Source: Allocoleopsis franciscana PCC 7113
GTDB taxonomy: Bacteria; Cyanobacteriota; Cyanobacteriia; Cyanobacteriales; Coleofasciculaceae
Direction of reading: 5' to 3'
Assembly: GCF_000317515.1 (NCBI RefSeq)
Contig: NC_019738.1
Coordinates: 7,032,001 to 7,096,000 of the forward strand
Length of the DNA stretch: 64,000 nt
Shown: positions 3,331-14,155 of the stretch, piece by piece
Numbering within the stretch: the stretch's first letter is position 1
Layout of the letters: every line of letters starts with the position of its first letter
Translations under genes and position numbers: made by a program
The notes under the pieces: model-generated
Databases searched by the model: none
What the model was told of the DNA's origin: nothing
What the model saw: the letters and a program-made list of their open reading frames with translations, nothing else

Positions 3331-4074
3331 TTACAGCACTGTCATTACCTTAAGTAACTCTGCGGACAAATCTATGTTAGAACCATCTTTTTTTTGAAAT
3401 AAGACGCCTGCCAAAAAGTAAATATTTTGGGAATAGAATGCTTTGCGATTTTTCCGCAGTTCCATAATAGCTGTTTTTACTTTGGGTTCACAGCTATAGT
3501 ACCCAAACGTCAGGGGAGCAATCATAAAATCAACTACATGATAACCCTGAGCAAGTGCATAATCAATGGTCTCGACTGGATTGGAGTAAGCCGAAATCAT
3601 CAACATCACATTCTCACAACCCAGTGATAAAAGCCGTTTAGTAATGGTTGCTCCATCCTCACCACCATGTAGAGAAGGCATGTAGAGATTGTCATCGGGA
3701 GCGGGAAGGTAAGGAGGATTGGCAATGAGGTAACTGGCACTAGAGGCAAAGTTTTTGAAGAAACATTTGTTATGAATCGTATATTGATGTTCGAGTTGAT
3801 ATTGCTCAATTCTAGACCGACCGAGTTCACAAGCCGCAGAGTTCAATTCATAACCTTGAATAAACCCATCAAATTGACTTTTCAGCAAACCACTAATGAC
3901 CGGACTCCCGTCTCCGGCACCAAATTCGACAACTGAATCAAAACGAGTGCAGTTCTTCAGCACCATTTTCTCTAGACATTGGGAATAAAATTGAGACTCT
4001 TCAGGACAAAAGAAAACTTTGTTGGGTGAATAGGATTGAACGGCTGTGTTCGAGGTTAATAATACTTCTTGCAT
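3331..4074 (-). CDS. NPPY-type SAM-dependent methyltransferase
   Basis: A 247-aa class I methyltransferase. The SAM loop is VVEFGAGDGSPVISGLL (about residues 48-64), and the catalytic motif ANPPYLPAP (about 117-125) is the (N/D)PPY signature of enzymes that methylate amino or amide nitrogen, such as HemK/PrmC. The region between contains GYELNSAACELGRSRIEQY, the ribose-binding acidic strand. It lacks the PrmC N-terminal helical domain, so it is probably not the release-factor methylase. The start at ATG 4074 lies 77 bases downstream of the end of the iron-containing redox enzyme gene on the same strand, consistent with co-transcription. The substrate is unknown. Confidence 0.8.
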   Translation of the reverse strand: MQEVLLTSNTAVQSYSPNKVFFCPEESQFYSQCLEKMVLKNCTRFDSVVEFGAGDGSPVISGLLKSQFDGFIQGYELNSAACELGRSRIEQYQLEHQYTIHNKCFFKNFASSASYLIANPPYLPAPDDNLYMPSLHGGEDGATITKRLLSLGCENVMLMISAYSNPVETIDYALAQGYHVVDFMIAPLTFGYYSCEPKVKTAIMELRKNRKAFYSQNIYFLAGVLFQKKDGSNIDLSAELLKVMTVL

Positions 4075-4151
4075 GGTACAAATCTTGCTATTCGCTTTCA
4101 GAATGAGGGGTATTCGATACTGGTCTAGGAACTATCTCAACGGATGCTAAA

Positions 4152-5264
4152 TTAAGCGGATTGCTCTGCCTGTTTGATGCAGCGAATGATCGCTGCACCG
4201 GCCCGATCGCCCATCCATTTTTCTTGGTCATAACCGAGTACCAGTTCCCAGGCATCCTCTGGGTATTGGTCTACTAAGGGTAAGGCTACGTCCTGCAACA
4301 TCCATTGACCGTGTCGTTCATCTTCCCGGATGTGCAGTTCCCAGTAACCCATCGCCGTGTCTGAAAGCTGTAATCTTTCTGCGGCACTCATGTAATCTTT
4401 ATAGATGGAAGGGCCAGCAATTTCAAAGTAAGTAAGTCCACCGTTGTAGCGGAGAAAATGCCGCTTGCATTCTGTTAGTAAGAAGTTGTGATTGATACAA
4501 GCTAACAGTTCCCAAGGAACGATATCAAAGTATCCCTCTGGCTGAGTATTAAGCCCTAACTCCGCCATCATTTTGGCGAAAAAGGTAGAGTGTTTCCGGG
4601 TGAAGCGGCCATTCCCGTATTCCTCCAATAACACACGGATTAATGTAGCTTGTACTTCGTTGCTAGCACCGCCTAGAATTCGCGATAGACGGCTGGCTTC
4701 CACTAATCCATCTAGAGAGGCGATCGCTAACAGATGCCGATATCCTTCCAGCGTCATTTCTTGCCGTAGATATTGCTTGTTCTCTGTTAACGTGGGATTC
4801 AAGTCAGCCTCACACCGCTCAATCAGTGCCTGCTGGGCGTCTAATTGCCGTAATTGTGCAACATCAAGTTGTGCCAGTTCCCACACTTGCCAAACCGATT
4901 CAATCTGATCGCGTACCCATTGCAAATAATACGAACGCTCGTTTTTGTAGCGTCGTAAATCATCGTACCAGAACAAATTAAGCCGATTAATATGATATAG
5001 AATGCGCTGCAAAAATAAGTGCGCTGTCTCTACTTCCTCAACTGACGCGTGTTCTGTGTAAGCTCTGCTCAGAGCTGTGGCGACCGCTGCTTCAAAATTA
5101 CGTACTAATTCAGGGTGAGTATCTACCTGTCGGTCTAAATTTTCATGGGTAAGTAGTTGAATGAATTGTTGTTCGGCTTCGATATAATTGGGGGATTGAG
5201 CAGCCGATGACAATTCTTTGGATATCCCTTTAATCAGGCGATCGGGACTCAAAGCTACGGTCAT
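4152..5264 (-). CDS. Iron-containing redox enzyme, haem-oxygenase-like di-iron (HDO) family
   Basis: A 370-aa, almost wholly helical protein. The C-terminal third carries the signatures of the Haem_oxygenas_2 (PF14518) family: FFAKMMAELGLN, INHNFLLTECKRHFLRYNGGLTYFE, and GYWELHIREDERHGQW. The last of these supplies a cluster of His and acidic residues that in this superfamily ligate two irons. Characterised relatives (UndA, BesC, SznF central domain, CADD) carry out O2-dependent oxidation of fatty acids or amino acids; the substrate here cannot be read from sequence. It sits between the NPPY methyltransferase and a 2OG oxygenase, all on the minus strand. ATG 5264 is a reasonable start. Confidence 0.8.
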   Translation of the reverse strand: MTVALSPDRLIKGISKELSSAAQSPNYIEAEQQFIQLLTHENLDRQVDTHPELVRNFEAAVATALSRAYTEHASVEEVETAHLFLQRILYHINRLNLFWYDDLRRYKNERSYYLQWVRDQIESVWQVWELAQLDVAQLRQLDAQQALIERCEADLNPTLTENKQYLRQEMTLEGYRHLLAIASLDGLVEASRLSRILGGASNEVQATLIRVLLEEYGNGRFTRKHSTFFAKMMAELGLNTQPEGYFDIVPWELLACINHNFLLTECKRHFLRYNGGLTYFEIAGPSIYKDYMSAAERLQLSDTAMGYWELHIREDERHGQWMLQDVALPLVDQYPEDAWELVLGYDQEKWMGDRAGAAIIRCIKQAEQSA

Positions 5265-5483
5265 ATTATGATGCCTTAAAATCTTTGTGGAGTTTGTTGT
5301 TATGTATCGCTGACAAGGGAAACAGCGTTAAGAATTGTGTTTGTCAACGTAATACAACGATATACAAGTCTCTTCCTCTGTTCCGTCCATCCTTGGACAG
5401 AATCACCGTTATCAACGAACTCCACAACAAAACCGAGATTCCTACCTAAAGGGGTTTGACGAAAGCTTCATTGAACCCCCAAC

Positions 5484-6152
5484 TTACTTCCGTTTTACCT
5501 TCATTGCCCTAGACTCCACTGTAAAGGCTGGAATCTCTTGCAATACAGTGTCACTCAAACTGTATTGTTCGCACACTAAACTTAGACGAGTGCCAGTGGT
5601 TTTAACGGCATTAACCGAATGGGTCAGGTCGCCTTGAAAATACAACAATGTGTTAATTTGTGGCTTAATCTGCCCGACTTGCTGTTTATGCCGACGCAAC
5701 ACTAGCTCTCCTCCTTGCAAATTAGGTGGCACCTGCACATAAAGCACACTAACAACTACGGGAGGTTCAACGGTTTTGCAATAAGAGCGCAGGGAGCGAT
5801 CAATATGTGGATCGACGCGAGATCCTTCTTTGAGTAACAATGGGTTGAGGTAGAACGCATTACAGGTAGGCTGTAGCGCTCGTTCTAGATAAGGCTTAAA
5901 GAAGGGAAACCGCCGTTCCACTTCCCCAATTTCTGAACGTTGAAACACCACGGAAAATCCTTTAGTGCCAACAAAGTCGCGGTTGAGGTTATTGATAGTC
6001 AGGTAAGAACAAGCCAATATCCCTCCTCGCAAGTCGTTGAGTTCATTGATGGGCAAGGCATTGGGCTGTTGAGAATAGTAGTTGCTCAAGGAATTCAGGA
6101 ATTTCAAGGACGTACTAATCCCATCATCTCTGTTTTGGGCAACACTCGCCAA
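5484..6152 (-). CDS. 2OG-Fe(II) dioxygenase (prolyl 4-hydroxylase-like)
   Basis: A 222-residue protein with the double-stranded beta-helix oxygenase signature. The iron triad is H116-x-D118 (in VDPHIDRS) and H178 (in GDLTHSVNAV), and R189 (TGTRLSLV) is placed to bind 2-oxoglutarate. GGELVLRR and NTLLYFQGDLTHSV match P4Hc-type enzymes. The start is unclear: the frame opens only at TTG 6152, there is no in-frame ATG before the conserved part, and a stop lies about 24 bases further upstream, so the N-terminus may be eroded or use TTG. It lies 219 bases upstream of the di-iron protein on the same strand, suggesting a shared pathway. The substrate is unknown. Confidence 0.8.
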   Translation of the reverse strand: MASVAQNRDDGISTSLKFLNSLSNYYSQQPNALPINELNDLRGGILACSYLTINNLNRDFVGTKGFSVVFQRSEIGEVERRFPFFKPYLERALQPTCNAFYLNPLLLKEGSRVDPHIDRSLRSYCKTVEPPVVVSVLYVQVPPNLQGGELVLRRHKQQVGQIKPQINTLLYFQGDLTHSVNAVKTTGTRLSLVCEQYSLSDTVLQEIPAFTVESRAMKVKRK

Positions 6153-13389: not shown

Positions 13390-13633
13390 TGTTGACATCT
13401 TGCTCTAGTTGTTCAGTTGTTAAGGAGAAGGGGGATACCTGATAACGCCCCAGTAGCATCAGGAATTCCACTCGTGACATACCCGCCAATTGAGCAGCGC
13501 GTCCTGATGATAATTTACCCAGTTCAAACAGCTTTACAGCCGCCAAGATACGGAGTTCTCTTGAAATTGTTTCGGGTGTTTCTTTAAGGCTGATTAACAC
13601 TTCTTCAGGAATTTCGATTTGAACTGTACTCAT
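13382..13633 (-). CDS. UPF0175 family antitoxin-like protein
   Basis: An 83-aa protein: VQIEIPEEVL at the start, then ISRELRILAAVKLFELGKLSSGRAAQLAG, the helix-turn-helix-like core of UPF0175 (PF03683), and a short acidic tail. UPF0175 genes commonly precede DUF3368 toxins in type II-like toxin-antitoxin pairs, and here the stop overlaps the start of the truncated toxin (aATGcctga). AAGGAGGT 8 bases before the ATG is a strong ribosome binding site. With its toxin broken, this is an orphan antitoxin. Confidence 0.88.
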   Translation of the reverse strand: MSTVQIEIPEEVLISLKETPETISRELRILAAVKLFELGKLSSGRAAQLAGMSRVEFLMLLGRYQVSPFSLTTEQLEQDVNNA

Positions 13634-14155
13634 GTTTGATACCTCCTTGTTGACCGCAGATTTAATGTTACTATTTGGGCTGCTACTAGGCGCGATCGCT
13701 CTTTTCTAGATTGGTTTCGTTTTTTGAGTAGATGAGTTGTTCGGTGCTCGCATAATTGTTGCAAACGTACCCAAGTGATCGCATTTTGAATTGGGGCGAT
13801 CGCACTTTACGATATTCACCCCAACTCTGAAATAGGGATTAGGTTGTGGAAACTTTACGGATGAGCGATCGCATCAGCTTACCGGGAACGGGCGCAGGTA
13901 GGAGAGGACTCCATTCGCTGATGTGGCAAAAGTGGAGGGCGCAGAGGGCGTGGACGATGGTAGTTACGGTTGTTTTTGAGCCGATAACTAGGATTTGTGC
14001 AGATTCTGGTTCTGGGTTGGGTGGAGTGAGAGTGGAAGTAGGGGAGGTTTCTTTCGAGTCTGGGAGAGAGTCTTTGAACATAGAGCATTTTTTGAAGGGG
14101 AGCAATGTAACCAATATGGCAACAAAATTATTGTACCCTAACGATACCGATTTGG
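13634..14155. other. Gene-poor HIP1-rich stretch
   Basis: About 520 bases with several HIP1 or HIP1-like GCGATCGC sites (near 13691, 13797, 13865). Open frames exist on both strands over 13839-14193 (about 115 codons each) that fully overlap; neither has a recognisable domain or a ribosome binding site, and both contain low-complexity Ser/Pro or Gly/Arg runs, so I do not call a gene. Confidence 0.5.

Follow-up and report, generated by a model that had tools for sequence, protein, structure and literature searches.

An apparently mobile cyanobacterial gene pair encoding a predicted N-oxygenase-type diiron enzyme and a methyltransferase

We analyzed a 64,000-nucleotide stretch of the genome of Allocoleopsis franciscana PCC 7113 (NC_019738.1, denoted C1, positions C1:7032001-7096000; hereafter, the window), which comes from an assembly of 7.97 Mb in 9 contigs. 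Two adjacent genes on the minus strand of the window, encoding a heme-oxygenase-like diiron oxygenase (HDO) and a class I S-adenosylmethionine (SAM)-dependent methyltransferase (MT), constitute a conserved, apparently mobile cyanobacterial gene pair. As a tentative reading, held at somewhat below an even chance, we propose that the two enzymes form a module that N-oxygenates and methylates a small molecule, an amine or a guanidine. The first-pass annotation of the window had joined these genes with that of a 2-oxoglutarate (2OG)-Fe(II) oxygenase into a three-gene cassette. All three minus-strand open reading frames (ORFs) are present (Table 1), and the family assignments of their products hold; the grouping was not confirmed, because HDO and MT belong together and the 2OG oxygenase stands apart.

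Co-occurrence was assessed in 290 genomes drawn evenly from the class to which the window belongs, with each protein searched separately. HDO was detected in 74 of these genomes and MT in 67; both are present in 66 genomes, HDO only in 8, MT only in 1, and neither in 215 (Jaccard index 0.88). Most of the HDO-encoding genomes (65 of 74) contain a single HDO match. Before counting, 11 rows were dropped over the four genes: nine MT matches that were weak or partial (G021, G176, G009, G055, G066, G090, G215, G122 and G101), a weak 2OG oxygenase match (G085) and a weak match to DUF3891, a further protein family considered below (G105). Partial matches located at contig ends or representing remnants, such as those in G149, G072 and G236, were retained. 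The co-occurrence statistics ignore kinship among genomes, and the Fisher test values are extreme for HDO-MT and HDO-2OG alike because related genomes are not independent; therefore, the 2OG oxygenase served as a yardstick, with the Jaccard index as the measure.

The order of the two genes is conserved as well. In 62 of the 67 MT-encoding genomes, MT is located 3' of HDO, on the same strand in 54 cases and convergently in 8, with 12 to 407 bases between the genes apart from one case of 992 bases. The remaining five genomes are exceptions to this pattern (G151; G199, with MT at base 288 of the contig; G213; G051; and G059). To obtain a second collection, the named loci, GTDB genomes were scanned once with an alignment of HDO sequences; the best 80 of the 284 relatives detected were retained, a selection biased to close relatives, with flanks of up to 6 kb examined on each side. 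Here, MT is found beside HDO in 76 of the 80 loci (65 on the same strand and 11 convergent), some strains being shared with the class sample (L183/G191, L156/G223, L181/G287 and L204/G256 are probably the same records). Of the four loci in which MT was not seen, L209 and L198 are on contigs that end 84 and 945 bases past HDO, respectively, whereas L195 and L210 have room for MT, which is missing. Whenever the two genes are adjacent, MT is on the 3' side of HDO. Given that they mostly run in one direction, the two genes probably form one operon, the promoter of which probably lies in the gap upstream of HDO. Scans with consensus patterns detected neither a promoter in that gap nor a minus-strand terminator in the gap between HDO and MT.

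Named holders of HDO include Nostoc, Scytonema, Brasilonema, Microcoleus, Tychonema, Fischerella, Chlorogloeopsis, Leptolyngbya, Nodosilinea and Pseudanabaena, and a search for MT in 194 phylum-wide genomes yielded 16 matches, all in the class of the window (the share of this sample that lies outside the class is not stated). Phylogenetic trees of HDO (96 rows) and MT (88 rows) were built by a quick method, with SH-aLRT as the only support measure and no bootstraps. Anabaena/Trichormus, Pseudanabaena and G236, a member of family f6, form one set in both trees (8 HDO rows, including L198, with SH-aLRT 99; 7 MT rows with SH-aLRT 100). HDO and MT of another f6 genome, G183, are each placed among Nostoc in the respective trees. 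Of the 16 sampled f6 genomes, 4 encode HDO and the same 4 encode MT, whereas all 16 encode the 2OG oxygenase. The simplest reading of these sequence trees suggests that HDO and MT were transferred together between orders. No MT relatives were found in viral contigs or on plasmids; HDO matched 21 plasmid records, all at less than 60% identity (23.8-28.9% among the 20 matches listed). Contigs L139, L148 and L210, titled Chloroflexaceae, Gracilibacteria and Tatlockia, also carry HDO; these are probably misbinned, given that their HDOs group among the cyanobacterial ones in the tree.

The 2OG oxygenase behaves differently. Its assignment is sound (PF13640, E-value 2e-8), with the HxD...H iron triad (H116, D118 and H178) and the arginine for 2OG (R189) invariant in 31 of 31 sequences; the start of the protein is uncertain because the alignment to most homologues begins only at residue 16-25. 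This protein was detected in 121 of the 290 genomes, together with HDO in 61, with 13 genomes encoding HDO only, 60 the 2OG oxygenase only and 156 neither, so that the Jaccard index is 0.46. Among the 61 genomes that encode both HDO and the 2OG oxygenase, a distance of 10 kb or less separates the gene of the latter from HDO or MT in just two, the source genome and G163; in none of the 80 named loci was it seen within the flanks examined. Many assemblies are fragmented and the 2OG oxygenase gene is mostly on another contig, so that adjacency across contig ends can be missed. In G163, the closest relative (locus L119), the order of genes is 2OG oxygenase, two genes on the opposite strand, a truncated HDO (13431-13925), an intact MT and a HIT-methyltransferase fusion; a second, more distant HDO, with 58% identity, is encoded elsewhere in this genome. 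From this arrangement, we infer that the proximity of the 2OG oxygenase gene and HDO in the window is local. A cassette of all three genes would agree with their shared direction in the window and with the retention in G163 of the 2OG oxygenase gene about 1.9 kb from the truncated HDO and intact MT; nevertheless, with two opposite-strand genes intervening in G163, with the co-occurrence and positional data given above and with the alternative neighborhood described next, we dismiss it as very improbable. The 2OG oxygenase looks like a bystander, a chance neighbor in this lineage. Thus, the conserved neighborhood that the first-pass annotation named as a check exists for HDO and MT and does not extend to the 2OG oxygenase.

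In 7 of the 290 genomes, all from family f6, the 2OG oxygenase gene instead adjoins csc1 of type I-D CRISPR. Clustering of the neighboring ORFs places it between csc1-like and cas6-like ORFs in L040, L044, L045, L049, L053 and L056, and identification of six neighbor proteins, drawn from four of these six csc1 loci, gave Csc1, Csc2 or Cas6 in each case. The 2OG oxygenase also scores 281 bits against a PADLOC model that bears the label CAS-associated. In the source genome, about 3.2 Mb separates csc1 from the 2OG oxygenase gene. Across the sample, the 2OG oxygenase and csc1 are both present in 59 genomes, the 2OG oxygenase only in 62, csc1 only in 47 and neither in 122 (odds ratio 2.5), with the genes adjacent in 7 of the 59. 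A general link between the 2OG oxygenase and type I-D CRISPR was not accepted because the association is weak and the genes are not adjacent elsewhere.

The only Pfam domain detected in HDO is PF14518 (E-value 6e-29), and the protein ends with this domain; the C-terminal cupin, the N-N bond domain of SznF, is missing according to the Pfam scan. In a profile search against PDB sequences, the best matches were RohS (3e-20), SznF (4e-14) and HrmI (1e-5). The AlphaFold2 model (pLDDT 82) is all helical, as expected of the helical bundles of the HDO class, and aligns best to HrmI (Z 31.4, rmsd 3.3 over 329 residues), followed by SznF (Z 26.3), RohS (25.3), 3bjd (23.8; an unassigned Pseudomonas protein), FlcD (22.6-23.1), CADD (19.2) and UndA (16.7). 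The six core metal ligands, three histidines and three carboxylates borne by three core helices (E215, H225, E281, H311, D315 and H318), are present in 117 of 118 HDO sequences, a set that includes some strains twice because two collections were combined. A seventh ligand, the auxiliary-helix residue E189, aligned to E189 of SznF, is present in the same number, so that HDO is predicted to possess the full SznF-type site of three histidines and four carboxylates (3H/4C). The exception is L124 (9663-10850), a 40%-identical paralogue with an open frame that lacks E189, H225, D315 and H318. According to a review, most HDOs are 3H/3C enzymes and about a quarter are 3H/4C, and another paper places the extra Fe1 ligand at E189 in SznF and at E93 in RohS.

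For MT, the assignment rests on the NPPY motif, present in every one of the 110 family members aligned, and on the class I SAM fold of its structural matches; the N-terminal CPEES signature is conserved in 101 of the 110. NPPY is typical of methyltransferases acting on planar nitrogen. The Pfam match of MT is MTS/HemK-like, below the cut-off (18.6 vs 23 bits), and MT also falls below the curated PrmC/HemK cut-offs (TIGR03534, 24.5 vs 199.1 bits; hemK_fam, 26.1 vs 115.5). Among the PADLOC models, MT has a weak match to mad2 (E-value 2e-6), and HDO does not match any of the defence models. The rarity of MT without HDO (1 of 67) compared to HDO without MT (8 of 74; two-sided sign test, P 0.04, with relatedness ignored) indicates that MT probably acts on HDO, on its substrate or on its product.

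A partial partner of the pair is DUF3891 (PF13030), encoded in 83 of the 290 genomes and in 64 of the 74 with HDO. The DUF3891 gene separates HDO from MT in L149 and L183 and, as judged by an equal gap and ORF cluster, in L159 and L164; in G236 and G072, the matches in this position are no more than partial, covering 72 and 90 residues, respectively. In the Nodosilinea-like loci L156, L162, L166 and L181, it is located upstream, and in the source genome, it is unlinked (C1:5572543-5573259). An HD-like pattern, recognized by eye, is invariant in 15 of 15 DUF3891 sequences (H15, H18, H47, H48, D49, H104 and D155). No credible relative was found among PDB sequences (the best match, Cas9 with E-value 0.07, was taken as chance), the neighbors of DUF3891 away from HDO are not conserved (the largest group spans 7 of 20 loci), and a literature search found no paper on this family.

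The nearest precedent for the pair is SznE-SznF, described as a guanidino methyltransferase and an HDO that act on arginine, a known methyltransferase-HDO pair. It is by analogy with this pair that N-oxygenation and methylation are proposed here. HDO would bind two irons, activate O2 and oxidize a nitrogen, that of an amine or guanidine, in a small, probably amino acid-derived substrate, and MT would methylate the same molecule, with methylation either preceding the HDO step, as in SznE-SznF, or following it. The product would be a small, N-oxidized and methylated molecule, the work of two enzymes encoded on their own and not of a large biosynthetic cluster, with DUF3891 possibly serving as an optional third step. 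Joint action on a small molecule, as earlier suggested for all three genes, is thus plausible for HDO and MT and not for the 2OG oxygenase. The two systems share a methyltransferase combined with a 3H/4C HDO, all seven metal ligands of which align; however, HDO has 370 amino acids and no cupin compared to 471-491 amino acids in the PDB sequences of SznF, and the NPPY/HemK-like MT, which is not embedded in a conserved cluster, is likened to SznE by role. HrmI, a lysine N-oxygenase, is the closest in fold, over nearly the whole length, but shows only 17% identity and, according to the review, is a 3H/3C enzyme, whereas HDO contains E189. RohS, the N-oxygenase of the azomycin pathway, is the best PDB sequence match and, as described, shares the auxiliary-helix Glu ligand, but is shorter (306 amino acids) and 18-21% identical to HDO.

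Several observations weigh against the proposed module or its mobility. The ligand set is not a strict marker of N-oxygenases because HrmI, described as an N-oxygenase with a 3H/3C site, lacks the seventh ligand; identity of HDO to N-oxygenases is only about 17-24%, and neither a common fold nor a common set of ligands determines which reaction is catalyzed. The best PDB sequence matches of MT are an unassigned methyltransferase and HemK (E-value about 2e-5), and in Foldseek numerous class I enzymes rank at a similar level, none of them a close characterized relative. HDO can evidently do without MT, given the eight genomes that lack the latter, and the choice of the best 80 of 284 loci under-represents a more distant HDO branch without MT. 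DUF3891 is not strictly needed either, because 10 HDO-encoding genomes have no match to it and 19 DUF3891-encoding genomes have no HDO. Finally, the transfer is inferred from the quick-method trees and was not weighed against alternatives.

Among the competing explanations, it is possible, if on the whole doubtful, that the module is the same but HDO performs carbon chemistry (hydroxylation, desaturation, C-C cleavage or rearrangement), with MT capping the product. According to the review, C-C cleavage and rearrangements also belong to the repertoire of HDOs, and FlcD aligns well to the model, too; nevertheless, the three best-aligned enzymes are all N-oxygenases, and the seventh ligand is a trait of SznF and RohS. 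Under a PrmC-like scenario, MT would be a protein methyltransferase with a protein, possibly HDO itself, as the target. HemK/PrmC models are among the best matches of MT, which resembles these N5-glutamine methyltransferases in the SAM fold and NPPY motif, and the asymmetric distribution of the two genes is what would be expected if MT served HDO. However, all these matches are far under the curated cut-offs, MT has an N-terminal signature of its own, the dependence fits MT acting on the product of HDO equally well, and NPPY is common to many non-protein methyltransferases, so we consider a protein target improbable.

Stress protection could be another role of the pair. Many of the named HDO holders come from soil or subaerial genera such as Nostoc, Scytonema, Microcoleus, Gloeocapsa and Brasilonema. 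Of 40 loci inspected by eye, 6 have Hli-like ORFs and 4 have general-stress SDR-like ORFs at no more than 6 kb from HDO or MT. The model here is DtpC, an Acinetobacter HDO with a role tested in living cells: DtpC is reported to aid desiccation survival redundantly with KatE and to limit peroxide in dried cells through the HDO site. By this analogy, HDO would be a protective factor assisted by MT and DUF3891, perhaps via a protective small molecule. However, the range of species may simply reflect how large the genomes are and how the search was made, the habitat pattern being an informal observation rather than a statistical one; the neighboring stress genes are not conserved; and DtpC, which is paired with KatE and not with a methyltransferase, was likened to HDO by description rather than by sequence. 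This explanation, accordingly, appears unlikely. The N-oxygenation and methylation module is the reading that we retain.

The surroundings of the pair offer little additional context, and no conserved cluster was found around it. A short precursor peptide, which the first-pass annotation advised looking for, was searched for among 2875 ORFs of 20-75 amino acids within 1.5 kb of the pair in the 80 loci, and the 12 largest clusters included no conserved one outside Nostocales, although shorter or more distant peptides would be missed by this search. The examples listed are located 541-1365 bp upstream of HDO, at an ftsI-like gene and its end. A ribosomally synthesized and post-translationally modified peptide (RiPP) cluster was therefore rejected, no such precursor having been detected among these 12 largest clusters. 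The ftsI-like gene and its neighbor are located upstream in 29 of the 80 loci, all Nostocales by title (one of each was Pfam-scanned, in L147), and are taken as ordinary chromosomal context, given their confinement to Nostocales among these loci. No RNA elements were detected in five loci. A short element, GATGGACGG, at window positions 5383-5391 (minus strand) recurs in the region upstream of HDO, in 16 of 119 loci altogether; other shared words occur there in more loci, and, with letter shuffling as the only null model, common ancestry may explain the element. At 1195-2079, the window encodes a protein in which a methyltransferase-like N-terminal part is combined with a HIT domain at the C-terminus, and a similar gene is located just past MT in G163 (L119, 15122-15979). 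The window contains one tRNA gene.

Table 1. The gene pair and adjacent features (positions in the window)
Feature	Positions	Strand	Details
MT, class I SAM-dependent methyltransferase	3331..4074	-	247 aa; N119-P-P-Y122; signature CPEESxFY (residues 23-30)
HDO-MT gap	4075..4151	.	77 bp
HDO, heme-oxygenase-like diiron oxygenase (PF14518), predicted N-oxygenase type	4152..5264	-	370 aa; E189, E215, H225, E281, H311, D315, H318
Gap between 2OG oxygenase gene and HDO, upstream of HDO	5265..5483	.	219 bp
2OG-Fe(II) oxygenase, real gene, judged outside the unit	5484..6152	-	222 aa; TTG start

Most characterized HDO enzymes are known from specialized clusters in few strains. The presence of an HDO beside one methyltransferase across many cyanobacterial orders, typically as a single match per genome, points to a common, so far unseen metabolite. 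No paper on the pair was found by title or abstract opening, in a search that left subscription journals mostly outside its reach. It is conceivable, and we offer this as a doubtful extension, that a mobile HDO-MT cassette, with DUF3891 optional, makes a previously unseen N-oxidized, methylated small molecule in terrestrial and mat-forming cyanobacteria, which would maintain it as a core metabolite of stress or signalling and not as a natural product peculiar to individual strains. The pair gives DUF3891 a first functional context and, as a two-gene system, is small enough to be expressed and assayed as a whole.

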